Positions 1 through 6,397 of a stretch of 6,397 nucleotides of DNA are shown here, piece by piece (position 1 is the first letter of the stretch; every line of letters begins with the position of its first letter). The stretch is from Promethearchaeota archaeon (GTDB taxonomy: Archaea; Asgardarchaeota; Lokiarchaeia; Sigynarchaeales; SOKP01). The notes below the pieces were generated by a model. The model did no database searches and was not told the origin of the DNA. It worked only from the letters and a program-made list of their open reading frames with translations. The translations under genes and the position numbers were made by a program. The stretch is from positions 1-6,397 of the forward strand of contig DAOUUT010000219.1 of NCBI GenBank assembly GCA_030668025.1, in the 5' to 3' direction.

Positions 1-1
1 C

Positions 2-514
2 GTTACAAATATATATAATGAGACTAACAACGATAAAAATTATCTATTCGTAAACTATACCCTTAAATTTTATTATAAAAATTCTTGGCTAAATGAACTA
101 GAACACATTAACTCATTTTACATGGCTTATAATAAAACTTTGAACTTTCTAAATTGGTCAACAGAAGGGTTCCAACAAGGAAATTTATTCTTGTTTCCAA
201 CCCCTGTTAATCGTTCACTAATTGGAGAGTCAATAAAAATAGGCGGTTTTTTTAACTATGTAATTTCGGGAGAAAAGATCATTTTAGACTATGGAAACAG
301 TACTACTATTGAATTAACTATAGCACCTTCTGGAATCTCTACGATAATAGAAAAGATTACGAACAGCACCACTATATATCGTTGGGAATTAAATACAGAT
401 GAAATCATTGTTAGGGTTCCTTTCGGAAACTATTATTTAATCGTTTTGATAATTAGCGTAATGTTAGTAGTAATCGTTAAAAAAAAGAAAATGTATATGC
501 CTTTCAAACATTAA
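2..514 (+). CDS. C-terminal part of a surface glycoprotein-like, tail-anchored membrane protein (5' end outside window)
   Basis: The reading frame is open from base 2 to the TAA at 512-514 (170 codons), so the ATG at 122 is internal and the true start lies before the window. The visible part is Asn, Thr, Tyr and Ile rich, like a beta-rich exported domain. It ends in one hydrophobic stretch (YYLIVLIISVMLVVIV), then four lysines and a short tail, which is a C-terminal membrane anchor with a positive cytoplasmic end. I count seven N-x-S/T sequons (NET, NYT, NKT, NWS, NRS and NST twice), which suggests an N-glycosylated extracellular domain. I recognise no family. The next gene is convergent, with only 17 bases between the stop codons; the T-rich bases at 511-531 could serve as terminator. 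Confidence 0.75.
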   Translation, partial: VTNIYNETNNDKNYLFVNYTLKFYYKNSWLNELEHINSFYMAYNKTLNFLNWSTEGFQQGNLFLFPTPVNRSLIGESIKIGGFFNYVISGEKIILDYGNSTTIELTIAPSGISTIIEKITNSTTIYRWELNTDEIIVRVPFGNYYLIVLIISVMLVVIVKKKKMYMPFKH

Positions 515-531
515 TTTTTATTTCGATTTAA

Positions 532-1374
532 TTATCCTTGAGTATTTTCTTCAATATCTCCTTTATATATATCAAATGGGACTCTTTCATTTGTGTCGAC
601 AATCCTTCTAAAAAATACTTTTTTGCTTTCTTCAATTGCTTTCTGGGTTGGTTGGTATTTTCTAGCGGGTTGACCGATGTATATGTAATTCGGTTCTAAT
701 ATTTGTCCTACATGTGTCACGGCCCAGATACCCAGAGTTGTACTTTTTCCTATAATAGTTCCAGGTGCTACAATTGAATGTCCTCCTAAAACTACATGGT
801 CGCCAATAATAACCTTTTTGATTAAAAGATGATCGTCATTATCAATTTTAACGATCATACTAGACATAATAACCGCACCTTGACCAACCATCATGTTGTC
901 TCCTAAGTCAATAAATTCTGTATCTAACCACCCATCGAAAAGAGTACTTTTAAAATCGGTACGAACGCCTAATAATTTAAAAGCAAGATTGGTAGCCCAT
1001 GGGAAGCAGAAATTATTCCAAATCCAAAATACAAACTTTTTGACAACAACTCGTAAACAAAAGTAGTAATAATCGTTATTGCTTTTATTAATTTTAAATA
1101 AACCTTCGCGTGGTTTGTGTAATAACTTCAATGTAATCAAAAATAACTTTCCTAGTAAGAGACTAATTAGCAAATACGCGCCCCACCACGCTAAAACGTC
1201 AATAAAAATTATAAAAAACCTCCAATGTAAAAAACTCGAATTCATAGCAACTGGAAAGAATGATAAGATCATGACTGATGGCATAAGAAAAGATAAAATG
1301 TGTAAAGTTATAAAAATTAAGGACGCAATAGGGTGCCAACGAAAAGAATTTGTTGTTATTGGGTGCGTTGCCAT
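532..1374 (-). CDS. Membrane-anchored left-handed beta-helix (hexapeptide) acyltransferase-like protein, single module, Pls/PosA C-terminal type
   Basis: This 280-residue protein starts with two strongly hydrophobic stretches (about 15-40 and 52-84). A P-x-x-G-x-F motif follows (PREGLF, 88-93), then a soluble domain with hexapeptide-type turns at about 145-235: DGWLDTEF, LGDNMMVGQG, VIIGDHVVLGGHS and APGTIIG. These read as a left-handed parallel beta-helix like that of hexapeptide acyltransferases. H199-S200 is the likely active-site histidine area by family analogy. Arrangement and motifs resemble one module of the C-terminal region of Pls/PosA-type peptide synthetases. It is closely similar to the first module of the upstream gene, including TTN[S/T] near the N-terminus and TN-x-x-VPF at the C-terminus. 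The ATG at 1372-1374 is the only usual start; it lies 40 bases after the upstream stop, so the two form an operon. A longer start near 1425 is possible. Substrate unknown. Confidence 0.8.
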   Translation of the reverse strand: MATHPITTNSFRWHPIASLIFITLHILSFLMPSVMILSFFPVAMNSSFLHWRFFIIFIDVLAWWGAYLLISLLLGKLFLITLKLLHKPREGLFKINKSNNDYYYFCLRVVVKKFVFWIWNNFCFPWATNLAFKLLGVRTDFKSTLFDGWLDTEFIDLGDNMMVGQGAVIMSSMIVKIDNDDHLLIKKVIIGDHVVLGGHSIVAPGTIIGKSTTLGIWAVTHVGQILEPNYIYIGQPARKYQPTQKAIEESKKVFFRRIVDTNERVPFDIYKGDIEENTQG

Positions 1375-1414
1375 AGCAATTGACTCATATCCTTTCTCAG
1401 ATAAGTTATGTTCT

Positions 1415-2803
1415 TTATTCTCCAGAATAATCGCCTCCTAAATAATCGATAATATCTTCTTTTTTCATCCTTCTAGCTGGGAATCCAGTATATATCCCAT
1501 TACCATCTAACTCATCATATTTAAGCGTAGTGCAACCAGGTAAAAATGTAGAATCCTCTCCAACCTTAGTACCAGGCAAGCCTCCCGTTGTGGCATTAAG
1601 TATAGATCTATTACCTATTTCTGCACCAACAAATATTAGATTCTCTTCTCCATAAACGCCATTAACTAAATGATTTGTAATATGTGATGAAGTACCTAAA
1701 TAACAATTATCACCAAGGTTTATGTGACTGTGGACAAAAGTTTCTTCTAGTACCGTACCCTTTCCAATTTTATTGGATTTTATAAAATTCAACTCCCAAT
1801 TAACTAACCACGGGAATGGAGAACGTGAGAATGCAAAAACAGGATATTTCATGAGGAATGATCTAAAATGATAATAATCAAGAGTAGTTGATGACGCATC
1901 TAGATTTCTATCGAAGATGCCTTGAGAAGGACCTCTTTTATCTGCTAATTTATAGAACCACCTTGTAAATAATGCCACGAAAAATAAATGTATTAAATAG
2001 CAAGATATAAATATTAATGGAGTTAAAAGATATAGGCCGAAGTTATATGGATTTAAAAGAATCTCAATTGTAAAGGGTTGAGACAACAGATTCGGCGCTA
2101 AAAATCCAAACAAAAACAAGTAAAAAATAAATCCTGGCAAAAAAAAAGAAAATCCAATTATGATTACGCCAGATATAATATAAAAATGAAACGGAACTGA
2201 TAAATTTGTTCCATGTGCTTTTAAAAACTCTTCGTTTTGCGTGATAGATGGTTCTTTTTCAAAAAAGCTTTTTTCAATTACTTCTTTATTAGTAATAGCG
2301 CTAATTTCTAACATTTTTTTAACAGGTCTACCACGATATATAGAATTGCTATCTAAATGCTGATCTATTTTAGTTATAGAATTTGAATCAAGAATAGTGT
2401 TTGGTTCAATAATAGTGCCTGGTAAAATAAGAGAATGGGCCCCAATAATTACATTGTCCTTTATAACTACTCGTTTAAAAATCAACCTATCTTTTACAAT
2501 CAAATTCGACATAATTACAGTCCCTTGACCTATTCTAACGTTTTTCCCAAGTGTAACAAACTCGCAATCAACCCAACCATCATGTAAAGCGTTTTTAAAG
2601 CTAGTTTTTACCCCTAATATTTTATATGCTAATATTTCAAAAAAAGGAAGAGATAATTGTCTTGATAACCAAGTAGGCCACTTTTTGATAACGGCTCTTA
2701 AACTCCAATAACAAAAGTCTTTATCATCTTTTTTAAAATAAAATACGCCTTCTTTAGGCGGATGGATTAAATTAGTAATTAAAAGAAATATTTTTGAGAC
2801 CAA
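1415..2803 (-). CDS. Two-module membrane left-handed beta-helix acyltransferase-like protein, Pls/PosA C-terminal type
   Basis: The conservative call starts at a TTG (2801-2803) and gives 462 residues. Module 1 covers about 13-160: PKEGVF at 16-21, DGWVDCEF, LGKNVRIGQG, then the beta-helix turn GAHSLILPGTI with H123-S124. A linker with TN-x-x-VPF (199-205) leads into two membrane stretches (204-237 and 252-283). Module 2 covers about 284-447: PSQGIF at 292-297, a second beta-helix, and a closing YTGFPARRM like YRGRPVKKM and YIGQPARKY in the other modules. In module 2 the His-Ser pair is replaced by T405-T406. Family knowledge: such TM-hairpin plus soluble-domain repeats make up the C-terminal half of Pls/PosA peptide synthetases. 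No adenylation or carrier domain is fused here. TTG is very probably not the true start, because 76 upstream codons in the same frame encode the missing first membrane hairpin. It is first gene of an operon with 532-1374. Confidence 0.8.
   Translation of the reverse strand: MVSKIFLLITNLIHPPKEGVFYFKKDDKDFCYWSLRAVIKKWPTWLSRQLSLPFFEILAYKILGVKTSFKNALHDGWVDCEFVTLGKNVRIGQGTVIMSNLIVKDRLIFKRVVIKDNVIIGAHSLILPGTIIEPNTILDSNSITKIDQHLDSNSIYRGRPVKKMLEISAITNKEVIEKSFFEKEPSITQNEEFLKAHGTNLSVPFHFYIISGVIIIGFSFFLPGFIFYLFLFGFLAPNLLSQPFTIEILLNPYNFGLYLLTPLIFISCYLIHLFFVALFTRWFYKLADKRGPSQGIFDRNLDASSTTLDYYHFRSFLMKYPVFAFSRSPFPWLVNWELNFIKSNKIGKGTVLEETFVHSHINLGDNCYLGTSSHITNHLVNGVYGEENLIFVGAEIGNRSILNATTGGLPGTKVGEDSTFLPGCTTLKYDELDGNGIYTGFPARRMKKEDIIDYLGGDYSGE
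1423..1439 (-). promoter_or_regulatory. Shine-Dalgarno-like AGGAGGCGAT with a non-ATG codon downstream
   Basis: On the minus strand AGGAGGCGAT (1439-1430) matches 9 of 10 bases of the ideal archaeal AGGAGGTGAT. It lies inside the last codons of the two-module gene. Eight bases after its GG is a CTG (1425-1423) in frame with the downstream gene and upstream of its annotated ATG. Use of CTG would add 17 residues and overlap the upstream stop by 11 bases, giving translational coupling. The ATG at 1374 itself has only a poorly spaced AAAGGA about 15 bases ahead. The same bases encode Gly-Gly-Asp in the upstream gene, so the match may be accidental. Confidence 0.3.
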
Positions 2804-3039
2804 AATAGAACTGATAATTAAAATGAAAACTCCTACAAAGAAAATTAACGGAAAGATAATATAAAATAATGTCTCTGTCAGATAAAAATTATACCAATAA
2901 AACCAAAACCAAAAAATAAGTGGTTGAGAGCTCAGAACAATTATTAATAAGTAAATGACTATATAATATTTTTTAGCTAAAGTATTTGTAGTTCTGGGGC
3001 CTTCTCTTAAAGAAGCGGGTATAGAAATTTTTTATTCAC
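2804..3039 (-). other. Missing N-terminus of the two-module gene: open in frame but without a normal start codon
   Basis: The frame of the 462-residue protein stays open for 76 codons above its TTG, from 2804 to 3031, and is closed by a TAA at 3032-3034. The translation contains GPRTTNT, matching HPITTNS in the sister gene, then two long hydrophobic stretches (YYIVIYLLIIVL and LFYIIFPLIFFVGVFILII) ending in the helix that runs into the TTG. Distances between TTN and P-x-x-G are similar in both proteins, so this is coding. There is no in-frame ATG, GTG or TTG. A GTG at 3037-3039 would join the frame if the A6 run (minus strand, 3033-3028) had one more A, giving about 541 residues. Other options are an ATT or ATA start, or an ATG at 3109 interrupted by the TAA. 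Confidence 0.65.
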
Positions 3040-3059
3040 TCTGCTTTATCCATAACTCT

Positions 3060-3082
3060 AGTGATATTATAATATAATAATA
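3060..3082 (-). promoter_or_regulatory. TATA-like promoter element of the membrane acyltransferase operon
   Basis: The minus strand reads TTATATTATAATATC across this stretch. It includes the perfect 12-base palindrome ATATTATAATAT (3064-3075). Its centre is about 29 bases from the GTG at 3037-3039, the spacing expected of an archaeal TATA box ahead of a leaderless start. In so AT-rich a region TATA matches are cheap, so this is a candidate only. The flanking stretch to 3224 is shared with the divergent dehydrogenase gene. Confidence 0.35.
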
Positions 3083-3200
3083 TAGTAAGAAGTTATCTCT
3101 TAAAACCATAATATAATTTATTAATTTAAATTTTTTCTTCAAATTTCCTAAAGTTTTAGATATATTAAAAACTAAATTCAATATTATTATTTCAATTTTA

Positions 3201-3227
3201 ATAAAGGATGAAGGATGAAATAGGTTG
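3201..3227 (+). promoter_or_regulatory. Ribosome binding region and TTG start of the acyl-CoA dehydrogenase
   Basis: A tandem repeat AAGGATG-AAGGATG (3204-3217) lies just before the coding region. The second AAGGA (3211-3215) is 9 bases from TTG at 3225-3227. The in-frame stop TGA at 3216-3218 excludes any earlier start. The two ATGs in the repeat are out of frame; the second opens only ATG-AAA-TAG, which could act as a tiny upstream reading frame. A weak TATA-like stretch (TTAGATATATTAAAA, about 3155-3169) lies upstream. Confidence 0.45.
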
Positions 3228-4754
3228 AGTGAAGAATTTTGGTGGTGGACGGACCCACAAAAAGCGATTTACCAAGAAGTTAGAGCGTTTGTAGAGGTTA
3301 ATTTCGAAGAGGCAGAGGAATATTTCTGGAATACCAAATTTCCATGGCCATTAGTAAAGAAAGTTGCTGAAAAAGGGTATTTTGGAGTCGGCGTTCCGAA
3401 AGAGTACGGTGGTTTAGAATTGGGCGCTACCGGAAGTTGCATTGTTGCAGCGCAGCTAGGCAGACTTTATGCTGTAGGTCATGTATTCACCGTAAGTATG
3501 TTGGCTGGGTTGGAACAGCTATTAAGGTTTGGTACCGAAGATCAAAAGCGAACTTGGCTCCCCAAAATTGCAAATGGTGAAGAATTGGGTGCTTTATGCA
3601 TTACTGAACCTTTTGCGGGATCTGACGCTGCTAATGTTTTTACTTCCGCTGTAAAGGATGGAGACGAATGGATATTAAACGGTAAAAAGCGATTTATCAC
3701 TGGAGCAGGAGTTTCTGATAGATATTTTATTTACGCAAAAACGAGCGATGACCCAGCTATTCGCAAACAATACGGTCATATAACTTCTTTTATGGTTGAA
3801 AAAGGTAGACCAGGATTTTCTTTAGAAAAAATAAACCCCTTGATTGGATTTGATAATGTCCCAAATGGATACATCGATTTTGATCACGTTAGAATTCCGG
3901 ACATTAATCGTATTGGTGCAGTTGGAAATGGTTGGAACGTGATGATGGCAGGTTTGAACTTTGAGCGACTAATTGGTGCTGCAGTTTTTAGTGGTTTGTT
4001 TGAAGATGTAATTAATTTGTTATTTCACTTTACTAAAAGGCGAGTTCAATTTAAAAGAACTACAAATCAATTTCCAGGGATTCAGAACGAAATCGCTGAG
4101 ATTATAAAGATCGCAAAAGTATCGAGATTATATTCTTATCATTGCGCTAAATTAATAGACAATGGTGGAGAACCAATGGTTGAGGCCTCAATAGCAAAAA
4201 TAATTAACACAGAAGCTGCAAGAGATATTGGACTTAAAGCCATTCAAATATTGGGAGGAGATGGTCTCACTAAGTTTTTACCTGCTGAAAGAATCTTACG
4301 CGAAGCTAAAATTGGAGAAATCGTTGCTGGAACTAATGAAGTCCAAAAAATGATTATCTATAGGTTTTGTGCTATGCTCCCTATATATAATAAACCAATG
4401 AGAATGAGATGGAACGACGATATTAATGCCCCGATAATTTCGAAAAAAGAATCTACATTCAAAGGAATGGAAATTAATGAGGAAAACATATTAAAAGTTA
4501 TTTCTCACGATTACAAAATAAACCCAGGATTATATATGACTCCAGACGATGTACGAGAGGATATAGGAGGGGGGCGCTCTGAATTGAGAAAAATTTTTGA
4601 AACGCTAGAAAAACAGGGATTAATCATTATTCATCGCGATCGGTCTGGAAAAATCGCATTAATTAAATCTACTTACGAAGGATTACAATTAGCTTTTCCA
4701 AAAGAATATTACCAATGGTTTCCAGCGTGGTACGATAACGCCGATAAATTTTAA
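3225..4754 (+). CDS. Acyl-CoA dehydrogenase with a C-terminal winged-helix domain
   Basis: Residues 1 to about 383 form a complete FAD-dependent acyl-CoA dehydrogenase, which puts an alpha,beta double bond into an acyl-thioester and passes electrons to an electron-transfer flavoprotein. Visible family motifs are ITEPFAGSDAAN (126-137), DGDEWILNGKKRFITGAG (145-162), LGGDGLTKFLPAERILREAKI (343-363) and GTNEVQKMI (369-377). The MCAD-type catalytic Glu before GT is Ala (A368), but E247 in LNFERL matches the alternative base of isovaleryl- and long-chain enzymes. The usual R-x-x-F-G is R-V-Q-F-K. The family is normally about 380 residues; the extra tail of about 125 contains a helix (419-430), TPDDVREDIG (439-448), a putative recognition helix SELRKIFETLEKQGLI (452-467) and a wing ending near 488, typical of winged-helix DNA-binding domains. 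Starts at TTG. Divergent from the membrane operon. Substrate not predictable. Confidence 0.9.
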   Translation: MSEEFWWWTDPQKAIYQEVRAFVEVNFEEAEEYFWNTKFPWPLVKKVAEKGYFGVGVPKEYGGLELGATGSCIVAAQLGRLYAVGHVFTVSMLAGLEQLLRFGTEDQKRTWLPKIANGEELGALCITEPFAGSDAANVFTSAVKDGDEWILNGKKRFITGAGVSDRYFIYAKTSDDPAIRKQYGHITSFMVEKGRPGFSLEKINPLIGFDNVPNGYIDFDHVRIPDINRIGAVGNGWNVMMAGLNFERLIGAAVFSGLFEDVINLLFHFTKRRVQFKRTTNQFPGIQNEIAEIIKIAKVSRLYSYHCAKLIDNGGEPMVEASIAKIINTEAARDIGLKAIQILGGDGLTKFLPAERILREAKIGEIVAGTNEVQKMIIYRFCAMLPIYNKPMRMRWNDDINAPIISKKESTFKGMEINEENILKVISHDYKINPGLYMTPDDVREDIGGGRSELRKIFETLEKQGLIIIHRDRSGKIALIKSTYEGLQLAFPKEYYQWFPAWYDNADKF

Positions 4755-4760
4755 ATATAT

Positions 4761-4785
4761 TCCTTATTTTTCTTTTTTATTTTTA
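4761..4785 (+). terminator. T-rich terminator of the acyl-CoA dehydrogenase gene
   Basis: Seven bases after the stop at 4752-4754 the plus strand is almost pure T for 24 bases (runs of 5, 6 and 5 T), without a strong hairpin. Oligo-T tracts alone end transcription in archaea. Confidence 0.6.
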
Positions 4786-4805
4786 ATTGTTAATCTTGAA
4801 ATCTT

Positions 4806-4841
4806 AAAAAAAAAATTAGCGTTATTAACATAGTTAATAAC
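4806..4841 (-). terminator. Perfect inverted repeat followed by T10: terminator of the coiled-coil gene
   Basis: GTTATTAAC (4821-4829) and GTTAATAAC (4833-4841) are exact inverted copies, 9 bases each, with a 3-base spacer. On the minus strand this hairpin is followed after five bases (GCTAA) by ten T (4815-4806). It lies about 70 bases beyond the stop of the convergent minus-strand gene. The near-symmetrical 21-base palindrome could alternatively be a protein binding site. Confidence 0.55.
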
Positions 4842-4857
4842 ATGGAATTTAGACTAT

Positions 4858-4917
4858 CTTAGATGAATTTAAATGAAGAACAATATCTAAGTGAGCATAA
4901 TTATAAATTATTTATGC
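4858..4917. repeat. Two further inverted repeats around the 3' end of the coiled-coil gene
   Basis: CTTAGAT (4858-4864) pairs with ATCTAAG (4885-4891) around a 20-base loop. GCATAA (4895-4900) pairs with TTATGC (4912-4917) around 11 bases. The second repeat contains the stop codon of the minus-strand gene (4912-4914). With the palindrome at 4821-4841, three inverted repeats lie within 97 bases. They may fold the 3' untranslated region of the minus-strand transcript. Confidence 0.4.
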
Positions 4918-5316
4918 AGTGGAAGCCTTTTGCAAACCAGATAACTCTTTTTGTAATACCTTTATTTCTGCATTTATCGCTTTAATTTTTGCCTTTTTCT
5001 CGTTATCTGTTTCCTTCAGTTTTAGATTTAATGTTTTCTCTTTTTCTTTAACTAATGTTGCTGATTCTTTTGTTAACCCTTTTAAAGAAATCTTTAATTC
5101 ACTTTCTTTTGCTTTCCATTCAGCAGCTTTAGCCATAGCTTCATCAAACTTCTTCTGATCGGCTTTTAATTTAGTATTATTCTCAGCAATTTTAGGATTA
5201 TACGCCCCCTCAACTTCAGTTTTAATAGAAGAGCTTTTTCCTTTAAATTCTTCTTCAACTTTACTTATTTCATCATTTTTTAACTTAATTTGGTCTTTAA
5301 TTTTATTTTCCGACAT
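4912..5316 (-). CDS. Small Lys/Glu/Ala-rich coiled-coil protein, unknown function
   Basis: This 134-residue protein begins MSENKIKDQIK and is almost entirely charged helix: Lys, Glu, Ala and Leu dominate, with leucine or isoleucine at rough heptad spacing (for example IKAINAEIKVLQKELSGL near the C-terminus). One proline, in GAYNPKIAE, probably marks a break between an N-terminal and a longer C-terminal helix. No signal peptide or membrane segment is present, so it should be soluble and cytoplasmic. I chose ATG at 5314-5316 over a TTG 12 bases upstream because a TATA box sits about 27 bases ahead of it, as for a leaderless message. No cysteine or enzyme motif is visible. It is monocistronic and convergent with the dehydrogenase gene. 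It could be a scaffold or nucleic-acid-associated helical protein, but nothing in the sequence decides this. Confidence 0.8.
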   Translation of the reverse strand: MSENKIKDQIKLKNDEISKVEEEFKGKSSSIKTEVEGAYNPKIAENNTKLKADQKKFDEAMAKAAEWKAKESELKISLKGLTKESATLVKEKEKTLNLKLKETDNEKKAKIKAINAEIKVLQKELSGLQKASTA

Positions 5317-5339
5317 AAAATTATACAACTTAAAATTTT

Positions 5340-5351
5340 TTTATAAATTTT
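5340..5351 (-). promoter_or_regulatory. TATA box of the coiled-coil gene, leaderless
   Basis: The minus strand reads TTTATAAA at 5347-5340, an almost ideal archaeal TATA box, preceded by GCCAAAA as a possible purine-rich BRE. Its centre is about 27 bases from the A of the ATG at 5316, so transcription should start at or next to the start codon. Confidence 0.7.
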
Positions 5352-5381
5352 GGCATTATAAGCCAAATAATTAATTATTGG
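5349..5381. repeat. Overlapping inverted repeats (possible operator) upstream of the coiled-coil gene
   Basis: TTTGGC (5349-5354) and GCCAAA (5362-5367) are inverted copies with a 7-base spacer. The second arm is reused in CCAA (5363-5366) with TTGG (5378-5381), which encloses the perfect palindrome AATAATTAATTATT (5366-5379). The set gives three TTGG/CCAA half-sites directly upstream of the TATA box on the minus strand, in the region where archaeal activators or TFB-blocking repressors bind. Confidence 0.4.
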
Positions 5382-5542
5382 TTTCGTATTTAATTGTTAG
5401 TATTTCTTAATTTCAATAAGAAAAAGGTTAAATATTATGAAACAAACTTTTTTCAGATTATAAGGAGGATTTTCTTAAAATTATTAAATAGTTCCATCTA
5501 CTAAGTAAATACCTTGCTAAAAGTATTTAAACGATCGTGGGT
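5382..5542. other. Intergenic region without a gene; possible plus-strand structured transcript
   Basis: No coding frame of substance lies here. Readable elements are a weak plus-strand TATA-like GTTAAATATT (about 5428-5437), an eight-codon ATG frame (5437-5463, MKQTFFRL), a strong AAGGAGGAT (5462-5470) with no usual start codon behind it, and an inverted repeat TAAATAC (5506-5512) / GTATTTA (5523-5529) with a 10-base loop. With the hairpin and T-run that follow, this could be a small RNA of about 110 to 140 bases, but no known RNA family was recognised. Confidence 0.2.
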
Positions 5543-5569
5543 AAGAAAAGACTTCTTTTCTTCTTTTTT
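5543..5569. terminator. Hairpin with T6: plus-strand terminator-like, also 3' of the minus-strand gene
   Basis: AAGAAAAG (5543-5550) and CTTTTCTT (5555-5562) are exact inverted copies with an ACTT loop. The T-run (5564-5569) follows on the plus strand, the layout of an intrinsic terminator, yet no plus-strand gene precedes it. On the minus strand the hairpin starts 13 bases after the stop of the 5576-5926 gene but is not followed by a T-run. It may end either transcript. Confidence 0.4.
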
Positions 5570-5575
5570 ATTAAT

Positions 5576-5926
5576 TTAATCTTTAATTTCGAAACTCTTA
5601 ATTAAATCAACTTTGTTTTTGAGGTCTATGGTAATAGCTAATAGGATTGTTTCTTCGGATTCAATAAATTCGGGATCCAGCATTACAAAGTAAAAAATGT
5701 TTCCTTTCGTTTCATAGCCCATTTCCATTTCACCGCATTCTTCTGGTAGTATTTTTAAAATTTCTTCGGGTGCATGCTTTTTCAATACTTCAAATATTGA
5801 ATTTTCGAGTTCTGATTGCTCTCTGCGAATTTCTTTTATTGTCGAAAAATCAAATTGACCCATGGATGCTCCAGCTTTATTATTTAGCTCGTTCCATTTC
5901 TTAAACAGTTCGCTTAAACTTGACAT
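5576..5926 (-). CDS. Small acidic protein of unknown function
   Basis: This 116-residue protein (MSSLSELFKKWNEL...) is not one I recognise. The first 60 or so residues look helical and charged (KEIRREQSELENSIFEVLKKH), followed by PEEILKILPEECGEMEMGY. The second half looks like alternating beta strands (KGNIFYFVMLD, TILLAITIDL, KVDLIKSFEI), so a small alpha plus beta domain is likely. There is one cysteine, no signal peptide and no membrane segment. The ATG at 5924-5926 is favoured because a TATA-like element lies about 24 bases ahead, as for leaderless transcription. It is divergent from the DUF1028 gene with 121 bases between their start codons. The length and intact frame support a real gene, but no catalytic motif is visible. 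Confidence 0.75.
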   Translation of the reverse strand: MSSLSELFKKWNELNNKAGASMGQFDFSTIKEIRREQSELENSIFEVLKKHAPEEILKILPEECGEMEMGYETKGNIFYFVMLDPEFIESEETILLAITIDLKNKVDLIKSFEIKD

Positions 5927-5942
5927 AGTAAAACTAAATCCA

Positions 5943-5957
5943 GATTTAAAATAAATC
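5943..5957 (-). promoter_or_regulatory. TATA-like element within an inverted repeat, upstream of the 5576-5926 gene
   Basis: GATTTA and TAAATC are inverted copies around three bases. The minus-strand TATTTTAAAT inside this stretch is centred about 24 bases from the ATG at 5926, fitting a leaderless promoter. The symmetry could also make it an operator. A further AT-only stretch at 5971-5995 offers other TATA-like matches. Confidence 0.4.
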
Positions 5958-6009
5958 TTTTTGTTATTCTAAAAATATAAAAATATTTTTTTATAATGAA
6001 TTTTAAATT

Positions 6010-6031
6010 CTTATTACAAACTTATTATAAC
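6010..6031 (+). promoter_or_regulatory. TATA-like element with a direct repeat, upstream of the DUF1028 gene
   Basis: CTTATTACAA (6010-6019) and CTTATTATAA (6021-6030) are direct copies offset by 11 bases, about one helical turn. The second copy is about 22 bases from the ATG at 6048, suitable for a leaderless start. No Shine-Dalgarno sequence precedes that ATG. Confidence 0.4.
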
Positions 6032-6047
6032 CAGGTTATTTTCAAAA

Positions 6048-6397
6048 ATGAAGAAAAATAAAATCAGCAATAAAAATGAAAGATTTTCCCACACATACTC
6101 TATTGTAGCAAGAGATTCTAAAACAGGACAGATGGGTGTGGGAGTACAAAGTCATTATTTTTCAGTGGGAGGGATTGTTTCATGGGGCGAATCAGGAGTG
6201 GGAGTTGTAGCGACTCAATCGCTTGTTAATGTATCTTTCGGTTTACGGGGAATCGATCTTTTAAAGCAAGGGAAATCACCAAAAGAAGCTTTAAACATAT
6301 TGCTTTCAGACGACGATGGGAGAGATGTAAGGCAAGTCGCAGTTTTGGACGCTCAAGGAAGAGTTGCAGCTCATACGGGATCGAAATGTATCAAACA
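6048..6397 (+). CDS. DUF1028 Ntn-hydrolase-like protein, N-terminal part (3' end outside window)
   Basis: From ATG at 6048 the frame is open to the window end (116 codons plus two bases). The translation matches the DUF1028 family pattern: HTYSIVARDSKTGQMGVGVQS, GGIVSWGESGVGVVATQS, FGLRGIDLLKQGKSPKEAL, then RQVAVLDAQGRVAAHTGSKCI. DUF1028 is placed in the Ntn (N-terminal nucleophile) hydrolase superfamily, with the Thr or Ser after the initiator Met as candidate nucleophile; the physiological substrate is not established. Here 15 residues precede the aligned Thr (T16), with no alternative start codon nearer to it. The visible part is about half of a typical family member. No signal peptide or hydrophobic segment is seen. 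It is divergent from the small minus-strand gene. Confidence 0.88.
   Translation, partial: MKKNKISNKNERFSHTYSIVARDSKTGQMGVGVQSHYFSVGGIVSWGESGVGVVATQSLVNVSFGLRGIDLLKQGKSPKEALNILLSDDDGRDVRQVAVLDAQGRVAAHTGSKCIK

Follow-up and report, generated by a model that had tools for sequence, protein, structure and literature searches.

Two lokiarchaeal genes built like the terminal domain of epsilon-poly-lysine synthetase: a candidate membrane acyltransferase of three unlike units

Epsilon-poly-lysine synthetase (Pls) makes a polymer, and its terminal domain, the polymerising part, has gone unexplained. For the corresponding domain of PosA, the excerpt of PMC10522769 used here describes an AlphaFold/RoseTTAFold model in which three membrane hairpins and three left-handed beta-helix (LbH) units pack with approximate three-fold symmetry. 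Here we describe two adjacent genes, A and B, with a comparable build in a 6,397-nucleotide stretch of DNA from a Promethearchaeota archaeon (assembly GCA_030668025.1, contig DAOUUT010000219.1, positions 1 to 6,397; hereafter the window). In particular, we report the layout of the pair, the predicted fold of A, the conservation of the unit classes, the adjacency of the two genes, a single loop His per assembly, and no detectable carrier gene in 21 related genomes. We propose, with a probability of roughly one half, that A and B constitute one integral-membrane LbH acyltransferase, a pseudo-trimer of three unlike units with its active site at His453 and a donor of the acyl-CoA type.

Judged by its sequence relatives, the window is lokiarchaeal. 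Every organism-naming source among the best 120 of 199 relatives of gene A is an Asgard archaeon, and the 36 A/B loci from named genomes all carry the title Lokiarchaeota or Lokiarchaeia, the closest being 93% identical. Across the phylum, a profile of gene A found matches at E<=1e-20 in 30 of 119 genomes, a count that includes paralogs.

Architecture of the gene pair

AlphaFold2 (AF2) predicts that gene A comprises two units, alpha and beta, each consisting of a membrane hairpin and an LbH domain (pLDDT 88.6, pTM 0.87); the first half has helices at residues 22-48 and 52-88 and an LbH at about 140-241, and the second has helices at 280-315 and 327-365 and an LbH at about 420-515. Gene B comprises a single unit of the same kind, gamma, with predicted helices at 15-44 and 49-85 and an LbH at about 155-230. 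In structure comparisons, solved LbH acyltransferases matched both LbH parts of A as well as that of B. (Note that A and B were folded separately; MAFFT placed the A rows on the gamma part of the fusion protein P0034, as judged by low row identities.) The features of the pair are as follows.

1415..3028, minus strand: gene A, alpha-beta protein, 537 codons plus stop (open reading frame; start codon ATT at 3026-3028, assigned from relatives)
3036..3039, minus strand: Shine-Dalgarno-like GTGA, 7 nt upstream of the gene A ATT start (sequence)
2765..2965, minus strand: membrane hairpin of the alpha unit, residues 22-88 (AF2 model, charge pattern)
2306..2611, minus strand: LbH domain of the alpha unit, residues ~140-241; codon of the GxHS His198 at 2435-2437 (AF2 model, fold matches)
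1934..2191, minus strand: membrane hairpin of the beta unit, residues 280-365 (AF2 model)
1484..1771, minus strand: LbH domain of the beta unit, residues ~420-515 (AF2 model, fold matches)
1670..1672, minus strand: codon of His453 in the NHLV loop of beta, candidate catalytic base (conservation, profile alignment)
532..1428, minus strand: gene B, gamma protein; probable start ATT at 1426-1428, first ATG at 1374, 14-nt overlap with gene A
1434..1438, minus strand: Shine-Dalgarno sequence GGAGG for gene B, within the 3' end of gene A (sequence)
1120..1332, minus strand: membrane hairpin of the gamma unit, residues 15-85 from the ATG (AF2 model)
670..912, minus strand: LbH domain of the gamma unit, residues ~155-235 from the ATG (AF2 model, fold matches)

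Only one of the three units carries a conserved His on the excursion loop of its LbH. In beta this His (NHLVDG-type loop) is invariant (53/53); gamma has no conserved His in its LbH, and alpha has one elsewhere, in a GxHS motif (42/45). The same is found in Pls, for which we used 12 Pls-type proteins from plasmids, out of 69 records found: of the three units C1-C3, only C3 has a conserved loop His (QTH-type, 12/12), and C1 and C2 have no conserved His. In profile alignments the beta and C3 residues both fall on His115 of LacA, which we take to be catalytic. With one conserved loop His per assembly, the lokiarchaeal and Pls assemblies both resemble degenerate trimers that have a single active site. 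Other invariant polar residues of the beta unit are E159, E160, K125 and K234, and a C-terminal stretch of the YxGxPA type retains its Pro in alpha (44/45), beta (53/53) and gamma (46/49).

Genes A and B are adjacent at all 37 loci, the window counted, with the stop of gene A followed 43-82 nt later by a conserved PITT motif of B. Counted from the first ATG, the open reading frame of B spans 532-1374 (minus strand). A pattern search that allowed ATT, ATA and ATC gave a Shine-Dalgarno match and a B start candidate overlapping A by 8-23 nt at 28 of the 37 loci; at the other nine it gave no Shine-Dalgarno-preceded B start overlapping A. The ATT start of B (1426-1428) is apparently common to the window and its nearest relatives, other species having ATG or ATA.

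A preliminary description of this DNA had read it as six transmembrane segments and three LbH domains divided two and one over two minus-strand genes, and the predicted structures bear out both the layout and the split. The start that it gave for gene A, 3039, is out of frame (1415-3039 is no multiple of three), and we place the start at the ATT at 3026-3028 instead. With the hexapeptide models of Pfam, a kind of check that it had suggested, B stays under the cut-offs.

Likeness to the Pls terminal domain and the search for a synthetase

The model of the Pls terminal domain, TIGR02353, matched gene A at E 1.9e-11 (43.1 bits; residues 30-242, the alpha unit only, the alignment beginning within the first transmembrane helix) and gene B at E 4.9e-9 (35.1 bits), both missing the curated cut-off of 423.1 bits about tenfold. 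The beta unit alone matched no NCBIfam model at E<=0.01. TIGR02353 gave 6-15 matches in each of 21 related lokiarchaeal genomes, with none of the 21 above the cut-off, and it gave matches in 13 of 14 control genomes, one of them above the cut-off; because 13 of 14 controls match, a weak match alone means only LbH. We observed that in many of the 21 genomes weakly matching frames of about 245-260 aa often lie beside a frame of about 280-305 aa (L038, L040-L046 and neighbours).

Profile-profile comparison related the units more broadly. All nine pairings of alpha, beta and gamma with Pls C1-C3 gave hhalign E values (pairwise, not database, values) of 3.3e-6 to 5.6e-17, and, after a split at the LbH border, the LbH halves alone gave 5.6e-6 to 2e-15 in all nine pairs and the membrane/linker halves at best E 0.015 (probability 3%). 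It is thus the LbH part that carries the likeness to Pls. When A was compared with all plasmids by tblastn, Pls/PosA came first by coverage (E 0.02) and a WcaF-type acetyltransferase scored E 6e-4. That A and B share fold and layout with the Pls terminal domain is well supported. Note that no solved Pls terminal domain appeared among the best 50 of 588, 788 and 495 fold matches or among 50 sequence matches, which is no proof of absence.

In a tree built from 99 units (21 per lokiarchaeal class, taken from 45 alpha, 53 beta and 49 gamma, together with 36 Pls units), C1-C3 form one clade apart from alpha, beta and gamma, with a warning of long branches. The sequences thus far favour independent triplication of the lokiarchaeal and Pls assemblies. 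A single clade of beta and C3 was rejected (p 0.013, long branches), and a one-to-one pairing of the units was not adopted, as the best sum of global hhalign scores (250, for gamma with C1, alpha with C2 and beta with C3) was too close to those of the other five arrangements (219-242).

Neither an adenylation nor a carrier domain was detected by NCBIfam and Pfam profile searches in A, B or any other gene of the window. The carrier model PF00550 matched in none of the 21 related genomes, which are drafts of unstated completeness, as compared to 11 of the 14 controls; at that model's sensitivity, this absence speaks against the thiotemplate scheme of Pls. For those 21 genomes a split synthetase with its carrier elsewhere was rejected on the PF00550 result. 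One paralog cluster adjoins an AMP-binding enzyme (L057 7338-8999, PF00501 E 2.4e-62). In addition, a family of about 545 aa with a TSGTT-like motif lies near some paralog sets (L050 9832-11460, L054 8912-10555, L060 12989-14626). This family gave no relevant Pfam match at E<=1 and, for L060, the one member searched, no PDB match at E<=10; against Pls A domains hhalign aligned 15 residues at 5.7% probability. We entertained the idea that this protein is a hidden adenylating enzyme and, finding no Pfam or PDB support, did not use it. Among the neighbours inspected, no AMP-binding or 545-aa gene was recognised beside A/B.

By these sequence comparisons, A and B lie outside the Pls/PosA family, as three defining features tested (an adenylation domain, a carrier domain and a TIGR02353 score above the cut-off) are lacking; they are built like the Pls terminal domain and are most probably neither a Pls nor a split synthetase. 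Separately, on a Pseudonocardia plasmid two genes are annotated for a Pls, one for its adenylation part and one for its carrier and terminal parts (L070 1447-5420), so that a bacterial Pls may also be split, or the division may be a sequencing slip.

The preliminary description had also likened the pair to the C-terminal half of Pls, and TIGR02353 does match A and B and hhalign relates all three units. The likeness is significant for the LbH part, the membrane and linker parts give no significant match alone, and the Pls units form a separate clade. Neither lack of profile or structural similarity nor a soluble part that is not beta-helical, the outcomes it had named as counting against it, was found. 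It was right that no synthetase lies nearby, and its reading as a free-standing acyltransferase gains support; its other suggestion, a partner synthetase encoded elsewhere, gains none, given the PF00550 counts and the lack of any TIGR02353 match over cut-off in the related drafts.

Unit classes, start codons and gene context

The three units are mutually homologous by hhalign, with E 1.4e-69 for alpha and gamma (35% identity), 2.3e-26 for alpha and beta, and 3.2e-25 for beta and gamma. In the unit tree alpha, beta and gamma each form one clade that mixes proteins of the window type with proteins from a separate paralog cluster (support 99/96, 100/99 and 95/80, respectively), the cluster units having been assigned by BLAST against the window's three units. 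Because these clades mix gene layouts, the three classes are older than the differing layouts. Twelve paralog regions, fetched out of many matches, held 11 sets of the form beta/gamma/alpha (a slash marks a gene boundary; one set was cut by the region end), 10 of the form betagamma/alpha (one with a truncated alpha), 8 betagamma genes standing alone, one alphabeta/gamma set and, where a contig ends, an alpha fragment. In terms of unit order along the proteins, alphabeta/gamma is a circular permutation of betagamma/alpha.

The paralogs occupy a conserved lokiarchaeal cluster (L049-L057, L059, L060) with two to four further hairpin-LbH sets, often together with a zinc alcohol dehydrogenase, a C-N hydrolase and a CxxCxxCC protein; a heliorhodopsin occurs in at least one cluster. 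Pfam matches of ten cluster neighbour proteins included these four, an NAD-dependent epimerase, a pyridoxamine-oxidase-like protein and the AMP-binding enzyme mentioned above. We found no paper on this family in Asgard archaea by title in the open-access literature searched. A and B point to a large, unnamed family of Asgard membrane enzymes that may have to do with lipid or surface chemistry.

The frame of gene A runs from stop to stop over 1415-3031 (minus strand) and contains no ATG, GTG or TTG before 2803. At the codon preceding a conserved SIPxS stretch, 35 loci have ATT (26), ATA (6), ATC (2) or ATG (1, L006). (The count covers the window, L001-L031, L033, L034 and L036; L032 and L035, whose sequence begins inside A, were excluded.) A Shine-Dalgarno-like match of at least 4 bases, mostly GTGA(T), lies 3-10 nt upstream of 29 of the 35 starts. 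At 30 of the 35 loci no ATG, GTG or TTG occurs between the upstream in-frame stop and the ATT, ATA or ATC codon; at four (L025, L030, L031, L034) a potentially usable in-frame GTG or TTG lies upstream. In the distant relatives L081-L083 an ATC immediately follows the in-frame stop. On this comparison with relatives, gene A would start at a conserved non-AUG codon, ATT, ATA or ATC, which would be new. That the codon is an internal Ile codon (all three encode Ile) is disfavoured: at most loci it lies 1-4 codons from the stop, with no usual start. The corresponding place in 20 cluster alpha paralogs found by pattern has ATG (16), TTG (2) or GTG (2). Of a second alphabeta family, L087 and L088 carry an ATG adjoining the start place; L089-L092 gave no clear start. 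A column-based start-codon test of neighbouring families chose an internal Met column for some of them and is indicative only.

In the excerpts of PMC8211752 and PMC6237735 used here, aIF1 acts against non-canonical starts in archaea, and a regulated GTC start is described in the excerpt of PMC5472188 for a bacterial case. No paper on a conserved AUU start in archaea was found by title in the open-access literature searched. If true, the retention of a gene-specific non-AUG start throughout Lokiarchaeia would be a rare example of archaeal start-codon control.

Besides A and B, the window holds a divergently placed acyl-CoA dehydrogenase gene, a gene for a DUF1028 protein that the window end truncates, and unknowns. 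About 130 residues of the dehydrogenase extend past its Pfam domains.

3225..4754, plus strand: acyl-CoA dehydrogenase, divergent neighbour, present at 24 of 37 loci, some of them incomplete; counted here as a neighbour, not as part of the system

By eye, neighbours at the A/B loci include phosphoglycerate-mutase-like, alpha/beta hydrolase, sugar transporter and nitroreductase genes.

Proposed function and comparison with known systems

We reasoned that A and B are probably a cytosol-facing, acyl-CoA-dependent membrane acyltransferase. Alpha and beta, from A, would pack with gamma, from B, as a pseudo-trimer, whose LbH head, three-lobed and on the cytosolic side, would be anchored by three membrane hairpins. 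Alpha and gamma would retain the fold and help shape the clefts between units, and only beta keeps a catalytic-type His. The cleft beside beta would hold the donor, a thioester that is most likely acyl-CoA; His453 would serve to activate the acceptor at a hydroxyl or amine, the acceptor being a molecule that may come from the membrane, such as a lipid or lipid-linked sugar.

Several observations weigh against this proposal. Both the enzymatic activity and the complex of A and B are predicted, not demonstrated. The residues ahead of the second hairpin of A, expected to be cytosolic, have a net charge of -1.4, and the model of B is of moderate confidence (pLDDT 69.7, with a tail below 50). The neighbours inspected around the A/B loci point to no pathway or substrate. 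In the paralog clusters 8 of 18 betagamma proteins lack an adjoining alpha, so that alpha, beta and gamma are not strictly 1:1:1. The excerpt of PMC10666635 used here reports an enrichment of overlaps or gaps between -8 and +10 nt among complex subunits and calls overlaps above 8 nt rare; the A/B overlaps, mostly 11-17 nt, exceed that complex-linked class and thus support an A:B complex by analogy only. Finally, P0034, an alpha-beta-gamma fusion of 808 aa and the sole fused protein among 210 hits, could be an assembly slip, since the overlapping genes A and B are read in different frames.

A special case of the acyltransferase proposal, which we consider unlikely, is that A and B acetylate archaeal lipid precursors or headgroups, as does heptaprenylglyceryl phosphate O-acetyltransferase. 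Among NCBIfam models, that of this enzyme, NF058585, gives the best match for A (E 8.2e-13, 48.3 bits) and for a cluster betagamma protein (E 1.3e-15), and membrane anchoring and an archaeal host suit the idea. However, its scores of 19-57 bits do not reach the curated cut-off of 300 and come from the LbH part only, B (24.2 bits) scores higher with other LbH families, and the window's beta unit alone matches nothing at E<=0.01.

Less likely still is that A and B are a free-standing Pls-like peptide or isopeptide ligase whose amino acids are activated by a separate adenylating enzyme with no carrier protein. The layout in common with the PosA terminal domain (excerpt of PMC10522769), the TIGR02353 matches, the loop His in one unit of both systems, and the AMP-binding enzyme and TSGTT-like protein near paralog clusters would fit such a ligase, but neither the carrier family nor a full Pls over cut-off is found in any of the 21 genomes, the 545-aa family lacks evidence of an adenylating domain, and no such gene was recognised beside A/B. 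Least probable of all is that A and B form a decayed LbH trimer without enzymatic function that serves as scaffold or regulator, a role resembling that of the gamma-carbonic-anhydrase-like subunits in mitochondrial complex I: these subunits are among the top sequence matches and the loop His is missing in two of three units, but the beta His, the invariant E159, E160, K125 and K234, and the Pro of the YxGxPA-type stretch are kept.

Extending the acyltransferase proposal, we suggest, somewhat more tentatively than for the pair itself, that Lokiarchaeia possess hetero-trimeric membrane LbH acyltransferases with one active site, permuted gene boundaries and several sets per genome, convergent with the polymerising half of Pls, and that synthesis of the alphabeta/gamma form may be throttled by the AUU, AUA or AUC start and translational coupling to gamma. 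A free-standing assembly of Pls build would open this chemistry to study without a synthetase, and A and B suggest that the basic activity of the Pls terminal domain may be acyl transfer at the membrane.

When compared to known systems, A and B resemble Pls/PosA in having three transmembrane pairs, each followed by an LbH unit (for A and B, in predicted structures and over two chains), and in the conserved loop His of one unit only; they differ in that Pls has adenylation and carrier domains, whereas A and B have neither and are split over two genes. NF058585 is a single model of 172 positions, matched by A in its LbH part only. The maltose and galactoside O-acetyltransferases Maa and LacA and the AntD-type sugar N-acyltransferases are soluble homotrimers that share the LbH fold, and LacA shares the loop His position, which in A and B is occupied in the beta unit only; unlike these enzymes, A and B have three unlike membrane-anchored units with one loop His. 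The lokiarchaeal paralog sets (beta/gamma/alpha and betagamma/alpha) have the same three unit classes and, by sequence, the same build as A and B, and differ in their gene boundaries, their canonical alpha start codons and their separate gene cluster.

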